Assembly (NCBI RefSeq): GCF_003933245.1
Contig: NZ_QUSX01000002.1
Span: 682,001-746,000 of the forward strand
Length of the DNA: 64,000 nt
Source: Maribacter algicola
GTDB lineage: Bacteria; Bacteroidota; Bacteroidia; Flavobacteriales; Flavobacteriaceae
Reading direction: 5' to 3'
A model generated the notes under the pieces. It was not told where the DNA came from and searched no databases. It saw only the letters and a list, made by a program, of their open reading frames with translations. The position numbers were made by a program, and so were the translations under genes. Shown in pieces: positions 20,322 through 29,801 of the stretch; within the stretch, counting starts at the first letter, position 1; each line of letters begins with the position of its first letter.

Positions 20322-20921
20322 TTACTTTTTTCGCTTCATCAACTCGGATTCAATATCCTTCAAGGTAAATCCTTTCGCCTGTAATAGAATCAAATAGTGA
20401 AAAAGCAAATCGGCACTTTCGTAAAGAAACAGGTCATCCTTATCATCCATGGCCTCTATAACGGTTTCAACAGCCTCCTCCCCTACTTTTTGGGCAATTT
20501 TGTTGATGCCCTTTTCAAAAAGGGATGCCACATAAGAGGCATCGCCTTTGGCCGCTTTCCTACGTTGCGCAATCGTATTTTCCAATTCTGAAAAGAAACC
20601 AAAACTAGAAGTATTTTCCTCGTTCCAACAGGTATCGCTTCCGGTATGGCAGGTAGGTCCAACCGGATTGACATAAATCAAAAGCGTGTCGTTATCACAA
20701 TCGTTCTTAATGCTCACCACGTGCAGAAAATTTCCGCTTTCCTCGCCTTTGGTCCACAGACGTTCCTTGGTTCGGCTATAAAAAGTAACTTTTCCACTTT
20801 CTTGGGTCTTTTGCAAGGCTTCTTCGTTCATATAGCCCAACATGAGCACATTTTTTGTTCTGGCATCTTGGATGATGGCAGGAACAAGTCCGTCCGTATT
20901 CTTTTTAAAATCAGCTTTCAT
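20322..20921 (-). CDS. hisIE: Phosphoribosyl-AMP cyclohydrolase/phosphoribosyl-ATP pyrophosphatase
   Basis: This bifunctional enzyme of histidine synthesis performs steps 2 and 3: hydrolysis of phosphoribosyl-ATP (HisE, residues about 105-199) and opening of the adenine ring (HisI, about 1-100). HisI motifs are MLGYMNEEAL, TFYSRTKERLWTKGE and the zinc-binding GPTCHTGSDTCW. HisE has the helical GDASYVASLF and KVGEEAVETVIEA motif. It is the last gene of the his operon, 9 bases after the racemase gene, and has no obvious terminator. Confidence 0.95.
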   Translation of the reverse strand: MKADFKKNTDGLVPAIIQDARTKNVLMLGYMNEEALQKTQESGKVTFYSRTKERLWTKGEESGNFLHVVSIKNDCDNDTLLIYVNPVGPTCHTGSDTCWNEENTSSFGFFSELENTIAQRRKAAKGDASYVASLFEKGINKIAQKVGEEAVETVIEAMDDKDDLFLYESADLLFHYLILLQAKGFTLKDIESELMKRKK

Positions 20922-20930
20922 GTGATATTT

Positions 20931-21626
20931 CTATTTGGCCAGTGCAAATTTCACGGCCTCATTTGCATGTATTTGTGTCGTATCAAAGGTAGGAATATTG
21001 CAATGTTCCTGTTGTATTAACAGCGGGATTTCCGTGCAGCCTAAAATTACTCCTTGTGCCCCAAGTTCTTCCGCTTTACCTATAATGGCTTGGTACTCCT
21101 TTCTGGAATCAGGCAAGATTATCCCTTTTGCGAGTTGCGTGTAAATGATGTTATGAACCAACTCTTGGTCCGTTTCACTGGGAACCATGGTCGTTATTCC
21201 AAATTGATTCTTCAGGATATCCTTATAAAAATCAAGCGCCATGGTGTATTTGGTACCCAACAAGAGAACTTTGTCCAATCCTTGGGTTACAATGGACTCC
21301 CCAGTGGCTTCCGCTATATGCAATAGTGGTATACTGGTACTTTCCTTGATGCTGTCCGCACAAAGATGCATGGTGTTGGCACCGATTAGAATAATCTCTG
21401 CCCCTGCATTTTCCAATCGCTTTCCAATTTCCGCAAAGTCGGTATTCAATGATTCCCAATCTCCCCTACTTTGCTTTTCGGATATTTCTTGAAAATCGAC
21501 TGACTCCAGTATTAACTTACAGGAATGCGATTCGCCAAGGGCTTTATTCACGGCTTCGTTTAAATACCGATAATATAATTGCGTGGATTGCCACGTGATA
21601 CCACCAATTAGTCCAATTTTTTTCAT
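20931..21626 (-). CDS. Aspartate/glutamate racemase family protein (YgeA-like)
   Basis: This 231-residue protein has the two-domain racemase fold (GLIGGITWQSTQLYY at the start). The C-terminal catalytic Cys is present, C197 in LGCTEIPLL. The N-terminal catalytic position, Cys in most family members and Thr in E. coli YgeA, is Ala83 in IGANTMHLC. It may therefore not be a two-base racemase, or may use another residue. It sits inside the his operon between hisF and hisIE, 20 bases from hisF and 9 from hisIE. Substrate unknown. Confidence 0.8.
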   Translation of the reverse strand: MKKIGLIGGITWQSTQLYYRYLNEAVNKALGESHSCKLILESVDFQEISEKQSRGDWESLNTDFAEIGKRLENAGAEIILIGANTMHLCADSIKESTSIPLLHIAEATGESIVTQGLDKVLLLGTKYTMALDFYKDILKNQFGITTMVPSETDQELVHNIIYTQLAKGIILPDSRKEYQAIIGKAEELGAQGVILGCTEIPLLIQQEHCNIPTFDTTQIHANEAVKFALAK

Positions 21627-21646
21627 CGATTCTTTATTGCTTGATT

Positions 21647-22402
21647 CTAAATCCTAACTGGGATTCCCTGTTTGTTTAATTCCTTCTTTAAATCCTTAAT
21701 GTTTATTTCTTTAAAATGAAATACACTGGCGGCCAAGGCTGCATCGGCCTTCCCTTCTTTAAAAGTATCTGTGAAATGATGCATCGTTCCAGCACCACCC
21801 GAAGCAATTATAGGAATATTAAGTTCATTGGACAACCGGGCCAACGCCTTATTGGCAAAGCCATCCTTGGTGCCATCATGATCCATGGAGGTAAACAAAA
21901 TTTCCCCGGCTCCACGTTCTTCCACTTCCTTTGCCCATTCAAACAACTTACGTTTCGTGGGGACCTTTCCGCCAACTAAATGCACAGTCCATTCTCCTTC
22001 TATCTGTTTGGCATCGATTGCCACAACGATGCATTGGGAGCCGAATTTGGCCACCAGGTCGTTGATCAATTGGGGATTCTTAACTGCGGAGGAATTTATG
22101 GACACCTTATCCGCTCCATTCTGAAGCAAAATATCTACGTCCTCCACAGAGGATATTCCACCACCTACCGTAAAGGGAATACTCACCTTTTCGGCTACAT
22201 GGTACACCAAATCCGCCAAGGTTTTCCTTTTTTGCTCCGTTGCAGAAATATCCAAGAAAACCAACTCATCGGCACCTTCCATGCTATAGATTTCCGCTAA
22301 TTCCACAGGGTCTCCCGCATCTCTTAAATCTACAAAATTGACGCCCTTTACGGTTCTTCCGTCCTTGATGTCCAAACAGGGTATGATTCTTTTTGCAAGC
22401 AT
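21647..22402 (-). CDS. hisF: Imidazole glycerol phosphate synthase subunit HisF
   Basis: HisF is the cyclase half of IGP synthase. It uses ammonia from HisH to make imidazole glycerol phosphate and AICAR. The 251-residue TIM barrel has the catalytic aspartates in IPCLDIKDG (near residue 11) and VVAIDAK (near 130), and phosphate-binding GGGISS and SGGAGT. It follows the DinB gene by 24 bases and precedes the racemase gene. All catalytic residues are intact. Confidence 0.96.
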
Positions 22403-22426
22403 TCTTATCGATTGTAAAGCGTGACG

Positions 22427-22942
22427 TTATCCATTTTTAGTATTCAAATCCATTCCATCATAAAAACCTAGATCCTTATCCCTCAAAAGCTTTACCCAAA
22501 AAGCAATTTGGCCCGTGTGGTAGGAAAAATGTTCCACCGCATGCAGAATGACTCCTACCCCGGAAAAGGAAAAACCTTGAACGGAACGAATCTTGACCAT
22601 TTGCTCCGGCTTGGTGTCAAAAATGACCCTTTTGGCATCATCCACCGTATTCTCCAATTTTTTAATCAATTCCTCCTTGGTAAGCCCATCTTTGGTTTGA
22701 AACTCGGCATCCCTATTACGCACATCGTCCACTTCACCCAAAGAAGAAATAATGTATTGGGTCATATTTCCACATAGGTGAAGGATAAGGTTCCCGATAC
22801 TGTTGAGGGAATCATTTGGTTTTTTCCAAATTTCGTTATCGGTTACGTTTCCAAGACTTTTTTTGATCATCCGTGTACTTTCGTCCATGCGGAACAGGGC
22901 ATTTTTGACCAGCTCCTCTATTAATTGTGCTTCCTTATCCAT
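22427..22942 (-). CDS. DinB/DUF1572 family protein
   Basis: This 171-residue four-helix-bundle protein belongs to the DinB-like superfamily. The putative metal ligands are His in [14 protein letters not shown] and the pair in [14 protein letters not shown]. The family includes thiol transferases dependent on bacillithiol and many proteins of unknown role. It is inserted between hisA and hisF; its start overlaps the hisA stop by 8 bases, so it is made with the his enzymes. No known step of histidine synthesis needs it. Confidence 0.83.
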
Positions 22943-23714
22943 GTTTCAATATAAAATCCTCCAATTGTTTCAACGTAATTCGATTTTCATATATGGCCTT
23001 ACCAATTATAGTCCCCTCACAGCCCAGTTCCGCCAGTTTTGGAAGCTCGTCAAAAGTTGAAATTCCACCTGAAGCAATTAACTTTATGGGATTTTCCGGT
23101 GACGTTTCCCCAATTATTTTTTCATAGAGTTGAAACGAGGGTCCTTGCAGCATTCCGTCCTTGGAAATATCGGTACAGATCACATAGCGAATACCTTTCT
23201 TTTGATATTCCTGAATAAAAGGAATAAGGTCTTCGGTCGATTCTTCCTGCCATCCGGAAACAGCCACTTTTTCTTCCATGGCATCGGCTCCAAGAATTAT
23301 TCTTTCCGACCCATGTTCATTCAGCCAACCAAGAAATACTTCCCTGTTTTTTACCGCTATGCTTCCACCGGTAATTTGACTGGCACCACTTTCAAAGGCG
23401 ATTCTCAAATCATCATCTGTTTTTAAGCCACCACCAAAATCGATTTTCAAATTGGTATTTGTGGCTATTTGTTCCAAAACTTTATGGTTTACGATATGCT
23501 TGGATTTTGCTCCATCCAAATCTACCAAATGCAGGTGTTGTATACCATGGGCCTCAAACTCCTTGGCAACTTCCAAAGGATTTTCATTATAGATTTTCTT
23601 GGTATCATAATCTCCTTTGGAGAGACGCACACACTTACCTTCTATGATATCTATGGCTGGGATTATCCGAAGCCCCTTAGCTCCCAAAGGGGGGATACTG
23701 TTTTCAATTTCCAT
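22935..23714 (-). CDS. hisA: ProFAR isomerase
   Basis: HisA isomerises ProFAR to PRFAR (step 4 of histidine synthesis). The 259-residue TIM barrel contains [33 protein letters not shown] and ASGGIST. HisA usually begins at the MRIIPAIDI strand; here 16 extra residues ([16 protein letters not shown]) precede it and there is no Met at the normal place. The segment [10 protein letters not shown] is encoded by a copy of a short dispersed repeat. The gene sits 2 bases after hisH and overlaps the DinB gene by 8 bases. Confidence 0.95.
23671..23700 (-). repeat. Dispersed CCCC/AAAGGGG repeat inside hisA 5' end
   Basis: The stretch AGCCCCTTAGCTCCCAAAGG and the following GGGGATAC resemble the + strand reverse complement of 58724-58753, with about 21 of 30 positions identical. 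It encodes the nonstandard N-terminal residues of HisA. Short elements of this type (CCCC...TTTGGGGG) are known to be scattered in Bacteroidota genomes. Confidence 0.55.
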
Positions 23715-23716
23715 TT

Positions 23717-24310
23717 TTATAGTGCTAGAAAGTTTCTCAATATGTTCGCTCCATAATCCCCGGATTTCTCCGGATGGAATTGGGTGCCATAAAAATTATC
23801 CTTTTGAAGTGCGGCGCTGTAGTCCCACCCATAGGTACATTGAGCAATCGTTTCCTTGCACAACGGAGCATAAAAGCTGTGCACCAGATACACATAATCC
23901 TCTTGAAGCCCCATAAATAAGTCTGATCCTAAATGTTCTATTTTATTCCATCCTATTTGGGGTATTTTTATGGTGCCTGTTGGGCTTTGCGGAACGAATC
24001 TTTTTACATCAACATCAAAGATACCTAGGCCATTCGTATTGCCTTCTTCTGAACCGTTGCACATCAACTGCATTCCCAAACAGATACCCAAAACCGGTTG
24101 GGTAAGATTGGGAATCAATTGGTCCAATTGGCTTTCCCTTAGTTTTTTCATTGCACTACTGGCCTCTCCTACCCCTGGGAAGATAACTTTGTCCGCATTT
24201 TGTATTTCATCTGCATCATTGCTTAGAAAAGCATCGTACCCCAACCTTTTTATAGCAAATTTGATACTTTGGATGTTTCCTGCTCCATAATTTATTATAA
24301 CTATTTTCAT
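23717..24310 (-). CDS. hisH: Imidazole glycerol phosphate synthase subunit HisH
   Basis: HisH is the class I glutamine amidotransferase that supplies ammonia to HisF. The 197-residue protein has the nucleophile Cys in [10 protein letters not shown] (near residue 80) and the His/Glu pair in QFHPEKSGD, plus the oxyanion-loop [10 protein letters not shown]. It overlaps hisB by 4 bases (ATGA junction) and precedes hisA by 2 bases. Its partner hisF is two genes downstream. Confidence 0.96.
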
Positions 24311-25449
24311 AACACGCCCTTCGTAGATGGTAGGACCATTTTTTCAACGTCCCGCTTTACCGCCATTTTTATACTCTTTGCAAAGGCCTTGAAAATAGCC
24401 TCAATTTTATGGTGTTCATTGGTACCTTCGGCCTTAATATTTAGGTTGGCCTTGGCACCGTCCGAAAAGGATTTAAAAAAATGATGGAACATCTCCGTAG
24501 GCATGTCCCCGATTTTTTCACGTTTAAATTTGGCATCCCAAACTAACCAATTCCTACCTCCAAAGTCGATGGCTACCTGTGCCAAACAATCGTCCATAGG
24601 CAAACAAAACCCATACCGCTCGATACCCAATTTGTTACCCAAAGCTCGATAAAAAACTTCCCCTAAGGCAATACCTGTATCCTCAATGGTATGGTGTTCG
24701 TCTACTTCCAAGTCCCCTTTTACTTTAATTTTCAGGTCCATTTGTCCGTGACGCGCCAATTGGTCCAACATATGGTCAAAAAACGCCAGTCCAGTATTGA
24801 TATCGCTTTTTCCCGTACCATCCAAATTCAACTCGATAAGGATATCCGTTTCGTTGGTTTTACGATGTGTAGAAGCCGTTCTATCCTTCAGTTTTAAGAA
24901 CTCATAGATTTTTTCCCAATCGTTGCTTTCCAAGGCAATGTAGGAATCAAGTTCTTCTCGTTTCACCGTAATTTCGCCGGTGCCCAGATGAGTTTCGTCA
25001 TTGATGAAGATACCTTTGGCACCCAAATTCTTAGCGAGTTCCATATCTGTTAATCGGTCGCCAATAACAAAGGAATTTTTAAGGTCGTAATCGTTGGAGA
25101 AATATTCAGTAAGGAGTCCGGTACCCGGTTTTCTGGTATTGGCGTTTTCATGGGGAAAGGTGCGGTCCAGGAATACTTTATCGAAAACCACGCCTTCATT
25201 TTCAAAGGATTTAAGAATGAAATTATGAACGGGCCAAAAGGTTTCTTCCGGGAAGGAATCGGTTCCCAAGCCGTCCTGATTGGTAATCATAACGAGTTCA
25301 TAATCCAGTTCCTTGGCGATTTTACCTAGAAAAGTAAAGGCCTTTGGAAAGAAAATCATTTTTTCAAAAGCGTCGATCTGTTCGTCCGCAGTTTCCTTAA
25401 TGATCGTACCGTCACGATCTATAAATAGGACTCTTTTTTTATTTTCCAT
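24307..25449 (-). CDS. hisB: Histidinol-phosphatase/imidazoleglycerol-phosphate dehydratase
   Basis: This bifunctional HisB has 380 residues. Residues about 1-165 form the HAD phosphatase (FIDRDGTI nucleophile motif, [20 protein letters not shown]), which makes histidinol. Residues about 190-380 form the Mn-dependent IGP dehydratase, with DHHxxED-type metal sites in EHHTIEDTG and [14 protein letters not shown]. The fusion is found in Enterobacteria and many Bacteroidota. It follows hisC by 2 bases and overlaps hisH by 4. Confidence 0.96.
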
Positions 25450-25451
25450 GT

Positions 25452-26498
25452 TTAGGACAATTCTTTTAAAGATTCAATTAATTTTTCGTTTTCCCTATGT
25501 GTCCCCACCGTAAATCTCAATGTGTTTTCACAAAGGGGCTGGGTAGTTCTATTTCTAATGACAATCCCTTTCTCCAACAATTGTCCATATCTGAGCGACG
25601 CATCATCCACTCTAGCAAGAATAAAATTGGCATCGGTTGGATATACTTGTTCTACAAATTGAATGGTTTTTAACGATTGTTCCAATACCCTTCTTTCTTT
25701 AAGGATATTTTCAACTTCTTTGTTAATTTCCTCCAGATTCAATACCCTTTCCAATGCCCGTTGTTGGGTCAATTCATTGACATTATAGGGCGGTTTTATT
25801 TTGTTCAATACCGATATTATTTCTTCCGAAGCAATACAAATTCCTAAGCGAATTCCAGCCATTCCATAGGCCTTGGAGAGCGTTTGCGTTACCACCAAAT
25901 TGGGGTATTCAGATAATTTGGAAACCCAACTTTCCTCAGAAGAAAAATCAATATAGGCCTCGTCGATGACCACCAGACCCTGAAAGGACTGTAATAAAAA
26001 TTCTATGCTTTCCGCCGCAAAACTATTCCCGGTGGGGTTGTTGGGAGTGCAGAGAAATAATAATTTAGTACGTGTATCCACGTTTTTCAAAATGGACGCT
26101 ACATTCGGCTGAAAATCATCCATTAACAATACTTCCCTGTTCTCGACCACATTGATATCAGCCAAAACCTTATACATACCGTATGTAGGTGGTAGGGTAA
26201 TAATGTTGTCTACCTTAGGTTCACAAAAAGCTCTGTAAAGGAGATCTAGTACTTCGTCACTTCCATTACCCAAGAGTATATTTTCCTGTCTGATACCTTT
26301 ATGTTGGGCCAGGATGGACTTTAAACTTCTTTGTTGGGGGTCGGGATATCGATTGACACCATTCTGAAAAGGGTTTTCATTGGCATCCAAAAAAATCATT
26401 TCCGAACCATCCGACACATATTCGTCCCGTGCAGAGGAATAGGGTTTTAGACCTTTTAAGTTTTGACGGATCAAATTATTTAAATCGAACATTTTCAT
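25452..26498 (-). CDS. hisC: Histidinol-phosphate aminotransferase
   Basis: HisC transaminates imidazole acetol phosphate, a PLP enzyme of fold type I with about 348 residues. It shows the PLP Lys in [29 protein letters not shown] and the final [11 protein letters not shown] start at the ATG at 26498 ([13 protein letters not shown]), 1 base after the hisD stop. An in-frame ATG at 26531 would add 11 residues, but those are encoded by a dispersed repeat inside the end of hisD and look spurious. Confidence 0.94.
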
Positions 26499-26499
26499 A

Positions 26500-27813
26500 T
26501 TAAGATTTCTCGACTTCACTGGAAATGACACTATTTATTTCATTCAATCGTAAGGTTACCGCATTTTTATGTGCCTGCAACCCTTCGGCCTCCGCCATTA
26601 GTTCTATCGCTTTGCCAATGTTTTGAATGCCTTTTTGGGTTATTTTCTGAAACGTCATACTCTTCATAAAACTATCAAGGTTTACCCCACTGTACTGCTT
26701 TGCATATCCATTGGTAGGCAGTGTATGGTTGGTGCCCGAAGCATAGTCGCCAGCACTCTCCGGAGTATAGTTCCCAACAAATACTGACCCGGCATTCTCC
26801 ACATTTTCAATAAAAAAGTCCTCTTCTTCGGCACAGATAATATAATGTTCGGGTCCATATTCATTGATCAAATCAACTGCCGTTTTTTTATCATTAACAT
26901 AGATGAGTTTGCTATTTTTTATAGCCTTTTGGGCGATTTCCTTTCTTGGTAAATCCACCATTTGAATTTCTACTTCAACTTCAACTTTATCCAACAGGTC
27001 CTTTGAGATAGAGACTAAAATCACTTGGCTATCCACACCGTGTTCGGCCTGGCTCAACAAGTCAGAGGCTACAAAAGCTGGGTTTGCAGAACCATCCGCA
27101 AAAACCAAGAGCTCACTGGGTCCTGCCGGCATATCAATGGCCACCCCATATTTAGTCGCTATTTGCTTGGCAACCGTAACGTATTGGTTGCCCGGACCAA
27201 AAATCTTATACACATGTGGAACCGACTCCGTTCCAAATGTCATTCCCGCAATGGCTTGGATACCCCCTACTTTAAAAATTTTGGTAACCCCACAAAGTGC
27301 TGCCGTATACAAAATAGCAGGATTTACTTTTCCTTCCTTGTTTGGGGGAGTACAAAGTACTATTTCCTTGCATCCGGCCAATTTAGCAGGGATCGCCAAC
27401 ATGAGAATGGTAGAAAACAAGGGCGCAGTACCTCCAGGTATGTATAGACCTACTTTTTGAATTGGTCGTTTTTCTTGCCAACAATCCACCCCAGGTGCAG
27501 TTGTTACGAAAACTCTTTCCGTTTTTTGGGCCTTGTGGAATTCTTCGATATTGCTTTTGGCCAGTTGAATGGCTTTTTTCAATTCCTTCGAAACATGCAG
27601 ACTCGCTTGATCTACTTCCTCTTGGGTCACCCCTAGGGTGTACAAAGAAACTCCGTCAAACTTCTCCGTATACGTTTTCAAAATGGAATCCCCTCCTTTT
27701 TTTACTTCGGCAAAAACAGTATCCACAATATCCTCAATGTCGGACACGGTCTGCGTTGGTCGTTTAAGTATAGTGGACCACGATTCTCTACTAGGGTTAT
27801 AAATCTTGTTCAT
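26500..27813 (-). CDS. hisD: Histidinol dehydrogenase
   Basis: HisD oxidises L-histidinol to L-histidine in two NAD-dependent steps using Zn. The 437-residue protein has the usual signature (ESVPHVYKIFGPGNQYVTVAK, DMPAGPSELLV, SQAEHGVDS, EYGPEHYI and the C-terminal HTLPTNGYAKQYSGV). The last nine residues, VISSEVEKS, come from a dispersed repeat and lie beyond the normal HisD end. An 81-base gap with hairpins separates it from hisG upstream. Confidence 0.96.
   Translation of the reverse strand: MNKIYNPSRESWSTILKRPTQTVSDIEDIVDTVFAEVKKGGDSILKTYTEKFDGVSLYTLGVTQEEVDQASLHVSKELKKAIQLAKSNIEEFHKAQKTERVFVTTAPGVDCWQEKRPIQKVGLYIPGGTAPLFSTILMLAIPAKLAGCKEIVLCTPPNKEGKVNPAILYTAALCGVTKIFKVGGIQAIAGMTFGTESVPHVYKIFGPGNQYVTVAKQIATKYGVAIDMPAGPSELLVFADGSANPAFVASDLLSQAEHGVDSQVILVSISKDLLDKVEVEVEIQMVDLPRKEIAQKAIKNSKLIYVNDKKTAVDLINEYGPEHYIICAEEEDFFIENVENAGSVFVGNYTPESAGDYASGTNHTLPTNGYAKQYSGVNLDSFMKSMTFQKITQKGIQNIGKAIELMAEAEGLQAHKNAVTLRLNEINSVISSEVEKS
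26502..26529 (-). repeat. Dispersed repeat at the hisD/hisC junction
   Basis: On the - strand it reads GTCATTTCCAGTGAAGTCGA then GAAATCTT. It matches the widespread Bacteroidota element of consensus TGTCAyyyCGAGCGnAGTCGA and is related to 39953-39977. It supplies the last codons of hisD and ends at the stop codon. Confidence 0.6.
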
Positions 27814-27894
27814 TTCTTAAATAGCAATTAGCCCTTGGCTAATAATTAATAATAATGTTAGGCGAATAGCAAAAAGCTAACAGCCAATAGCCTT
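27814..27894 (-). repeat. Hairpin-rich spacer between hisG and hisD
   Basis: The stretch contains ATTAGCC-CTT-GGCTAAT (27827-27843), a 7-bp stem, and a second series AGCTAACAGCCAATAGCC near 27870-27890. The AACAGCCAA string also occurs in repeat copy A, so this may be a decayed relative. It could tune processing or expression between hisG and hisD. Confidence 0.4.
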
Positions 27895-28752
27895 TTATAA
27901 AACCATCTTCTCAATAGGACAAACCAAAATACCTTCAGCACCGGCCTTCTTCAATTCATCAATTACCTCCCAAAAAGTATCCTTATCTATTACCGTATGA
28001 ACCGAGCTCCACCCCTCTTCTGCCAATGGCAACACAGTTGGGCTGCGCATTCCTGGTAATAACTTCAGTATTTCCTGTAACTTCTCGTTTGGGGCGTTTA
28101 ATAGTACGTATTTTGATTTCCTGGCCCTTAGGACGGATTGTATCCTAAACTGTAGTCTTTTAAGCAAAGCTTTGCGTTCCTCCGAGATTTGGGGCGACAC
28201 AGCCAATACAGCTTCACTGGTCAACATTACTTCTACCTCCTTCAAATTATTCTTGAACAGCGTACTGCCACTAGATACGATGTCACAGATGGCATCAGCC
28301 AAGCCAATATTTGGGGCTATCTCCACAGAACCATTTATGATGTGTAGATCTGCACGAACCCCTTTTTTCTTTAAATAATTGGTAACAGTATTGGGGTATG
28401 ATGTAGCAATGCGTTTTCCTTCAAAATCCTGAACGGATTTATACTTGACCGACTTAGGTACCGCCAAGGACACCTTGCATTTTGAAAAACCAAGTTTTTC
28501 CGCAATGGAAATGTCGGCTCCCTTTTCTATCAATACGTTTTCACCAATGATGGCAACATCCACCACACCGTCCCTCAAATACTGGGGAATATCACCATTA
28601 CGTAGGTAAAACACTTCCATGGGAAAGTTTCGGCTAGAGGCTTTTAACTGATCTTTCCCATTGTCAATGGAAATACCACAGTCCTTTAGAATCTGAAGGG
28701 AGTCTTCATTGAGTCTTCCCGATTTTTGAATAGCAATCCTAATCTTTGTCAT
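27895..28752 (-). CDS. hisG: ATP phosphoribosyltransferase, long form
   Basis: HisG is the first and feedback-controlled enzyme of histidine synthesis, joining ATP and PRPP. At 285 residues it is the long form with a C-terminal ACT-like regulatory domain (about 205-285), so HisZ is not needed. Catalytic-domain motifs include IRIAIQKSGRL, DVAIIGENVL, IATSYPNT and DIVSSGSTL; the last binds PRPP. It is the first structural gene of the operon and lies downstream of the leader peptide and terminator, so it is probably controlled by attenuation. Confidence 0.96.
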   Translation of the reverse strand: MTKIRIAIQKSGRLNEDSLQILKDCGISIDNGKDQLKASSRNFPMEVFYLRNGDIPQYLRDGVVDVAIIGENVLIEKGADISIAEKLGFSKCKVSLAVPKSVKYKSVQDFEGKRIATSYPNTVTNYLKKKGVRADLHIINGSVEIAPNIGLADAICDIVSSGSTLFKNNLKEVEVMLTSEAVLAVSPQISEERKALLKRLQFRIQSVLRARKSKYVLLNAPNEKLQEILKLLPGMRSPTVLPLAEEGWSSVHTVIDKDTFWEVIDELKKAGAEGILVCPIEKMVL

Positions 28753-28791
28753 TATCGATTTTTAATTTTAGTTGGCAAATATTATCAGAGC

Positions 28792-28828
28792 CAAAAACAA
28801 AACCCGTTTGATTGCTCAAACGGGTTTT
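28792..28828 (-). terminator. His leader attenuator terminator
   Basis: On the - strand a 13-bp perfect stem AAAACCCGTTTGA/TCAAACGGGTTTT with loop GCAA is followed by GTTTTTGG. It lies between the leader peptide and hisG. Its 5' arm can also pair with the end of the leader peptide sequence (CTCAAGCG at 28872-28865 with CGTTTGAG at 28822-28815), giving an antiterminator. Confidence 0.85.
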
Positions 28829-28858
28829 AAAATATGTTTGTAATACTACAATACATTT

Positions 28859-28915
28859 TTACCTCGCTTGAGAGCAAGTATAAAAATGATGATGTGTATT
28901 ATTGTTTTTTCTCAT
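28859..28915 (-). CDS. hisL: His operon leader peptide
   Basis: A short ORF of 18 codons encodes MRKNNNTHHHFYTCSQAR, with three adjacent CAT histidine codons at positions 8-10. It lies 106 bases upstream of hisG and 30 bases upstream of an intrinsic terminator. This is the classical layout of a histidine attenuator: a ribosome stalled at the His codons leaves the later part of the leader free to form an antiterminator, while a ribosome reaching the stop lets the terminator form. Identification comes from codon content and position, not from homology. Confidence 0.82.
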   Translation of the reverse strand: MRKNNNTHHHFYTCSQAR

Positions 28916-28985
28916 TTCGATGTAAAAATAAAATTTAATTTTCTTGTGTAAAAGAATATTTTTGAAAAATAACAATTTAAACAAA

Positions 28986-29801
28986 TTAGTTATTTCCTAG
29001 AATTAAGGGCAATCCGGATTCTCCCCCACCTATTACGATAACCTTGGCGTTTGGAGATTCTGACATACGAAGCGTAGCATCTATTCCCTTATCCCTTAAA
29101 ATTTGATCGTTCAATGACGCACTCAAAATCCTATTGGCATCTGCCTTACCCTGTGCCTCAATCCTAACTTTTTCGGCTTCCTTTTCTGCCGTAATCAATC
29201 GAAACTCATATTCCAACGACTCTTGTTCCTGCTTTAATTTACGCTCTATGGCGTCTTTTATAGTGGGAGGAAGCGTTACATCACGTACCAAGATTTCATT
29301 TAACTGAATGTACTCATCGTTTACAATTTTTTTGGTTTCTTCAAAGATTTCCATTTGAATGGCATCCCTTTTACTTGAATAAAGCTGTTCCGGAGTATAA
29401 CGGCCAACTACCGATCTTGCGGCAGATCGTATGGTAGGCAATAAAACGCGTTGTACATAATCCTCTCCCTTTTGCTGATGCAATTTACCCAGGTCGTCGT
29501 ATTTGGGCTGAAACCAGGCGGACGCATCCAACTTGATATCCAATCCATTGCTAGAAAGCACGTTCATTTTTTCGAACACCTCCTGTTGCCGAACTTCGTA
29601 TATAAAAACCTTGTTCCATGGGGCAACTAGGTGAAATCCTTCACCCATAGGCGGCTGGTCCGTTACGACCCCGTTACCAAAAGTTTTGTAAAGTACACCC
29701 GCTTCTCCGGAACCTATGGTCACGGCAGACTTGGATATTAAGATAACCAACACTATAAAAATGAATATTGCCGGTAAGGCAATTTTTGGTAATTTGTCCA
29801 T
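28986..29801 (-). CDS. Prohibitin/SPFH-domain membrane protein
   Basis: This 271-residue protein has one N-terminal TM helix (about residues 8-25) and an SPFH/band 7 domain (GEAGVLYKTFGNGVV to about 210), followed by a coiled coil rich in Glu, Lys and Ala (LEYEFRLITAEKEAEKVRIEAQGKADANRI) and a glycine-rich tail. Such proteins form large rings in membranes and hold proteases or other partners. It follows the VWA protein gene by 11 bases. The partner is unknown. Confidence 0.88.
   Translation of the reverse strand: MDKLPKIALPAIFIFIVLVILISKSAVTIGSGEAGVLYKTFGNGVVTDQPPMGEGFHLVAPWNKVFIYEVRQQEVFEKMNVLSSNGLDIKLDASAWFQPKYDDLGKLHQQKGEDYVQRVLLPTIRSAARSVVGRYTPEQLYSSKRDAIQMEIFEETKKIVNDEYIQLNEILVRDVTLPPTIKDAIERKLKQEQESLEYEFRLITAEKEAEKVRIEAQGKADANRILSASLNDQILRDKGIDATLRMSESPNAKVIVIGGGESGLPLILGNN

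Follow-up and report, generated by a model that had tools for sequence, protein, structure and literature searches.

Whether the DNA that precedes hisG in Maribacter algicola carries a histidine attenuator, and how widely such a design is shared among the Bacteroidia, is the question raised by positions 28792 to 28915 of the stretch analysed here (64,000 nucleotides of contig NZ_QUSX01000002.1, hereafter the window). The features discussed lie on the minus strand. The his operon (20322..28752), delimited from ORF translations, contains what we take to be hisG, D, C, B, H, A, F and IE, together with two other interspersed ORFs; these names were assigned by recognition, and that of hisG (27895..28752) also by comparison with the hisG genes of relatives. 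Upstream of it lies an 18-codon ORF (28859..28915; MRKNNNTHHHFYTCSQAR), with its ATG at 28915-28913 and its TAA at 28861-28859, whose three consecutive His codons (28886..28894) would act as the sensor. From the end of this ORF to the hisG start at 28752 there are 106 nt. Just 5' of hisG, a 13-bp terminator hairpin (28799..28828) is apparent in the sequence, in the minimum-energy fold and in the RNAalifold consensus, with arms at 28828-28816 and 28811-28799 (the latter termed region 4), a GCAA loop, and a U-rich run at 28793..28802. Both the leader ORF with its three His codons and this terminator had been described, at the same positions, in the initial annotation.

The alternative pairings involve three further segments. 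Region 3 (28815..28824; CCCGTTTGAG), defined from the sequence, shuffles, alignment and the consensus fold, is common to the terminator (3:4) and to a putative antiterminator (2:3). The 5' arm of the latter, region 2 (28862..28872; CTCAAGCGAGG), is located inside the last leader codons and is supported by shuffles, arm swaps and the family alignment. The complementarity first proposed, between CTCAAGCG (28872-28865) and CGTTTGAG (28822-28815), stands; its extension, proposed as 11 pairs with a 2-nt bulge, differs slightly in our reading, as by eye we count 10 pairs with a bulged A at 28864. A leader hairpin 1:2, in which region 1 (28874..28878; CTTGC) pairs with 28867-28863, emerged from the minimum-energy fold and from covariation, and had no place in the earlier account. 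That account also included a small hairpin between regions 2 and 3 (28834..28856; ATGTaTTGTA, 28856-28847, with TACAAACAT, 28842-28834), a weak candidate that can be drawn from the sequence but is absent both from the minimum-energy fold of the window and from the RNAalifold consensus of 67 relatives. A TGTATTG motif 3' of the leader stop is frequent among hisG leaders of the family, as at 28856-28834 in the window. The minimum free energy of the 124-nt RNA is -39.1 kcal/mol; shuffled versions average -16.1 (z -7.0), and none of 200 is as low. The 2:3 duplex scores -15.7, with shuffles averaging -7.2 (p 0.005, the smallest value that 200 shuffles can give). In its sequence and predicted folding, the window contains the following elements of a his-type attenuator: a leader ORF, an intrinsic terminator, an exclusive antiterminator, and a 1:2 hairpin that would mask region 2.

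We compared this region with those of relatives. Eighty loci came from genome records with hisG 80-97% identical (including Maribacter, Zobellia, Arenibacter, Muricauda, Cellulophaga and Aquimarina), and 198 more comprised 30 from a class search, 80 further class stretches, 28 new ones from a family search and 60 further family stretches. hisG was found in 171 of 395 class genomes and 251 of 299 family genomes; outside the family, the best-matching 96 of 157 genomes with hisG were read. Removal of 10 duplicates left 268 distinct hisG upstream regions. A His-rich leader ORF (7 to 45 codons long, with three or more His codons inside a 6-codon stretch) was present in 262 of them, as compared to 96 of 5360 dinucleotide shuffles (1.8%), and both leader and terminator were found in 250, and in 29 of the 32 families sampled outside that of the window. 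These 250 loci were divided into four groups: A (79 from genome records), B (23 close family loci, with which the window belongs), C (69 distant family loci) and D (79 from other families). In 232 of the 250 leaders, three or more His follow one another without a break, and both His codons are used (CAT, 875; CAC, 151), hence their third positions vary. The His codons, whose conservation in relatives had been put forward as a check, are therefore kept across the class. In three loci (L008, L009 and L021), a CAG to TAG change shortens the peptide by three codons while the partner segment of region 3 is retained, which suggests that the last codons (QAR) are kept for pairing.

Some of the loci that miss the leader or the terminator criterion have other designs. 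Among the 6 of 268 that fail the former, L040 has a leader with two adjacent His (MKNQNTYHHFFSCSQAR), and in L119 a terminator and an ORF resembling a leader can be made out by eye. Twelve loci with a leader fail the terminator score; in one (L149) a terminator-like hairpin can be seen by eye, and the leaders of L168 and L169, which have no terminator by score, may be chance ORFs. Five loci outside the family (L139, L154, L161, L164 and L170) display, by eye, His leaders ending HH.HH(S/L)S and a palindrome or near-palindrome across the leader stop (e.g., ATTCCTCTTAAGAGGAAT in L154), with no terminator by score before hisG; perhaps they represent a Rho-dependent or translational variant. Likewise, four loci of a single family (L187-L190) have His leaders such as MEQYKLHHLHLHHHHFVVNR and no terminator by score before hisG, and show by eye a hairpin inside the last leader codons (e.g., CACCACTTTGTGGTG in L188).

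The 2:3 pairing of the antiterminator was better than in 200 dinucleotide shuffles (p <= 0.05) in 203 of 250 loci, namely 72/79 in A, 21/23 in B, 61/69 in C and 49/79 in D; it fell short of this threshold in 30 of the 79 loci outside the family. When confronted with 159 distinct terminator arms, region 2 preferred its own, which ranked at 0.198 on average over the 250 loci (0.243 within D), where chance would give 0.5. In several loci, regions 2 and 3 have been fully replaced together: ATAGGTG with CGCCTAT (L098), AGGTAGGCT with GGCTTACCT (L124), and TCGTGGCAGGTTT with AGGCTTGCCGCGA (L151). For the family alignment, L065 was dropped from 68 loci because its terminator looked mis-assigned; in the remaining 67, 91.6% of the 2:3 cells are paired, compared to 18-48% when the pairing is slid. 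Within these 67 loci, two-sided 2:3 changes are at chance level (51 of 500 shuffles reach the count) and RNAalifold returns the terminator only, while the 1:2 hairpin has 83.0% of cells paired and 15 two-sided cells, with a covariation score reached by 0 of 500 shuffles. The compensatory changes that had been called for are thus found between lineages, where both sides of 2:3 change together, but not inside the Flavobacteriaceae, where 2:3 hardly varies. On a tree, we counted 110 two-sided kept 2:3 events against a null mean of 360, and 134 such 3:5 events over all tips (3:5 being defined below) against 189, both nulls being inflated as swapping arms scrambles relatedness. From this count only the paired fraction is informative (2:3, 0.850 against a null maximum of 0.794; 3:5, 0.769 against 0.721). 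The permutation tests, whether by arm swaps or loop covariation, lessen the effect of relatedness but keep part of it. Taken together, the shuffle, arm-swap and between-lineage evidence upholds the proposal of mutually exclusive antiterminator and terminator stems.

A transcription start downstream of 28859 would have spoken against attenuation, as the initial annotation pointed out. We found a Bacteroidota-type -7 box (TATTTTTA) upstream of the leader at 28923..28930, on the basis of the sequence, close relatives and a position rule; it differs from the consensus TAnnTTTG at its last base, which counts against the fit to an attenuator. With the box spanning -12 to -5, as in Flavobacterium psychrophilum (PMC9723704), and a spacing of 4-5 nt reported for F. 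johnsoniae (PMC6847099), the position of the box predicts a start at 28918, 3 nt 5' of the leader AUG, a prediction that passes this check. A box TAnnTTT(G/A) predicting a start 3 or 4 nt 5' of the AUG occurs in 66/79 loci of A and 22/23 of B (window included), while the strict TAnnTTTG (predicted UTR of 0-5 nt) gives only 29 sites in the 79 A loci and 3 in the 23 B loci; in C and D, predicted UTR lengths are scattered, often 13-15 nt. The leaderless class amounts to 5.5% of F. psychrophilum mRNAs (PMC9723704). If the predicted start is right, the leader mRNA of the window would be nearly leaderless, an addition to the earlier account.

These observations led us to favour, with a probability of about 0.92, a ribosome-mediated leader-peptide transcription attenuator of the his operon. 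The transcript would begin about 3 nt 5' of the leader AUG. When His-tRNA is short, a ribosome would stall at the His codons and hinder the 1:2 hairpin, so that region 2, being free, would pair with region 3, the terminator would be blocked, and hisG would be transcribed. When His-tRNA is plentiful, a ribosome at the stop would cover region 2, 3:4 would form, and transcription would end. Without a ribosome, 1:2 would form and termination would be favoured. A ribosome usually covers some 15-16 nt past the first base of the P-site codon. By this measure a ribosome at the third His would cover most of region 1 and leave region 2 free, while one at the first or second His would stop just short of region 1. 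The earlier claim that a stalled ribosome frees region 2, and that one at the stop covers it, agrees with this footprint, depending on the His codon.

That the leader is a chance ORF 5' of an ordinary intergenic terminator, with no regulation involved, is a notion to which we give very little credit. A terminator alone would give the same fold, but this would not account for the excess of His-rich leaders (262/268 versus 1.8% of shuffles), for the preference of region 2 for its own region 3, or for the position of the terminator between the promoter box and hisG. A T-box, a riboswitch or a protein-bound leader appears just as improbable. The window has sub-threshold Rfam matches to PyrR (34.1 bits, cut-off 54) and L10_leader (26.8, cut-off 44), but these, like a Trp_leader match, were rejected as being below gathering scores; nothing in the window attains the gathering score of any Rfam family, no T-box was detected at E up to 10 within 28600-29000, and the His codons and stem geometry would be left unexplained. 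What had been observed at this locus is confirmed at the positions given, and its interpretation as an attenuator is supported.

In the same genome, the region 5' of pheA has a leader ORF (MTKQYFWNGFYFYFFFKRGTGLL) and, after it, a terminator-like hairpin (AAAAGTCCCGTGAAAAACGGGACTTTT), a Phe/Tyr-type attenuator; 5' of trpE, another leader ORF (MKKTWWWNNLRQHS or MKTMKKTWWWNNLRQHS) also has a terminator-like hairpin after it, a Trp attenuator. The presence of Trp and Phe leaders in the same genome counts in favour of the his attenuator reading. By eye, no leader was seen at the two ilvD loci of this genome.

Many relatives carry an additional element, which we term segment 5: a stretch between the terminator and hisG that is complementary to region 3 and the terminator loop. 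Examples are GUUUGAGACAAU with AUUGUUUCAAAC (L238), GUCUGAGUAAAU with AUUUACUCAGAC (L111), AUCUGAAUAAU with AUUGUUCAGAU (L255), and GUUUGAUAAAUU with AAUUUAUCAAAC (L235). Loci with too little sequence 3' of the terminator were left out, giving 229 of the 250 for the shuffle test of its pairing with region 3 (3:5) and 221 for the position and loop tests. At least 9 of 10 positions pair with the terminator 5' arm and loop in 102 of 221 loci; reversing the arm leaves 21 such loci, and substituting its reverse complement leaves 1. In 88 of these 102 sites, the segment stops 13-20 nt short of the hisG start. Since the register was set by the stem alone, pairing of the loop provides an independent test: 163 of 256 loop pairs (64 distinct combinations) are complementary to segment 5, where permutations give 113 on average and 138 at most, and all four loop positions pair in 61 of 117 loci (12 on average and 23 at most under the null). 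Among the 83 well-paired sites, the best 3-nt interval for the distance to hisG (14-16 nt before it) holds 58, and the best one for the distance to the terminator holds 30 (sd 4.9 versus 7.0). In the C group, the spreads are alike (sd 6.7 to hisG versus 5.7 to the terminator), and the spacing argument that ties segment 5 to the hisG start is moderate. The 3:5 pairing exceeds shuffles (p <= 0.05) in 35/75 loci of A, 3/22 of B, 44/67 of C and 14/65 of D, with arm-swap ranks of 0.253 (A), 0.202 (C) and 0.424 (D, near chance). Segment 5 is therefore strong in C, partly present in A, rare in B and patchy in D. The window has only a degenerate remnant (28771..28780; ATTTGCCAAC), likened by eye to GATTGCCAAGC and similar sequences, whose pairing with region 3 and the loop (-5.3 kcal/mol, p 0.48) is no better than in shuffles; it does not qualify as an attenuator with segment 5, as many relatives do. 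By eye, the pheA and trpE leaders of this one genome lack segment 5 and could hardly accommodate it, hence we rejected it as a general trait of the attenuators of this genome. We also judged a DNA operator formed by the region 3/segment 5 repeats unlikely, given that the repeats differ in sequence from one lineage to another and yet preserve their complementarity.

In those relatives, region 3 and the loop would also pair with segment 5, in the window at most vestigially, and the likeliest role of this pairing would be a second control, on hisG translation. In F. johnsoniae, mRNAs are weakly paired from -20 to +20, and initiation benefits from adenines at -12 and -13 (PMC6847099), so that a helix whose end lies near -15 could influence it, in one sense or the other. 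Together with this spacing, the loop covariation suggests a second, translational layer. Tentatively, and at a little short of even odds, region 3 may be a three-way switch (pairing with 2, 4 or 5) in many Flavobacteriaceae and some other Bacteroidia, by which a single stalled ribosome would control both transcription and translation of hisG, the clade of the window being in the course of losing the translational arm. Rather less likely, segment 5 is no repressor, and either keeps the hisG start region open or is a functionless leftover. The helix end at 14-16 nt (58/83) falls at the border of the -20 to +20 zone, where F. johnsoniae mRNAs have little structure (PMC6847099), the element is degenerate in the window, and the minimum-energy fold of the read-through leader has 3:4 in 66 of 80 segment-5 loci and 3:5 in 14, the median cost of 3:5 being 2.95 kcal/mol; the covariation of loop and segment 5 (163/256, null maximum 138) nevertheless argues against the absence of any function. 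It is more doubtful still that segment 5 acts in trans, with the terminated short RNA (region 3 and loop) pairing with read-through hisG mRNA and repressing its translation or destabilising it. The complementarity running from the loop into the stem and the preferred position near the hisG start would suit such a role, and the Sinorhizobium meliloti trp attenuator RNA does act in trans on trpDC mRNA (PMC7298713), but pairing in cis fits the data equally and the window barely has a segment 5.

The his leader of E. coli has 7 His codons, and Rfam RF00514 (His_leader) describes the enterobacterial his operon leader. Like the enterobacterial attenuator (hisL), the window has a His-codon leader peptide, a leader hairpin, an antiterminator and a terminator before hisG; unlike it, the window has 3 His codons, no Rfam match and a predicted start 3 nt before the AUG, and its relatives have segment 5. 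RF00514 gave no gathering-score match in the window and none at E up to 10 for 28600-29000. Use of attenuation in Bacteroidota had been called less described, which is right, but the field is not empty: in F. psychrophilum, of the same family, hisG and pheA are among the structured 5' elements that recur in other genera and have no Rfam hit (PMC9723704, published in 2021), and the authors report "strong clues" for leader-peptide attenuation before its amino-acid operons. That hisG element, a structured transcribed leader of the same gene for which attenuation is suspected, means that the attenuator is not new in kind; in the passages of PMC9723704 that describe it we found no regions, covariation or segment 5. 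In the largely openly accessible literature, only this study bears directly on a his attenuator in Bacteroidota, and we found no description of segment 5. Among other systems, the S. meliloti trpL transcript is leaderless, starting at the leader AUG, and its terminated RNA is a small RNA (PMC7298713); this is trp in another phylum and was measured there, as against a predicted 3-nt 5' UTR in the window. A His leader peptide outside the Proteobacteria is also reported in bacilli, for hisZ and a hisS paralogue (PMC2965389), another gene and phylum, and leader-like short ORFs in Bacteroides thetaiotaomicron by Ryan et al. (PMC7366714).

Taken alone, the window is a further his attenuator of classical anatomy, suspected before in the family, of which relatives carry a variant. 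What the analysis adds is the breadth and covariation across the Bacteroidia, a start predicted to be near-leaderless and, in relatives, segment 5. For attenuation by a leader peptide, RNA polymerase and ribosome must be closely coupled. Bacteroidia mRNAs are without Shine-Dalgarno sequences (PMC6847099), and the presence of his attenuation across the class, with a leader mRNA predicted to be near-leaderless in one clade, offers a way to test such coupling in the phylum. Segment 5, for its part, would bring a layer of translational control to a regulatory RNA that is among the best known.
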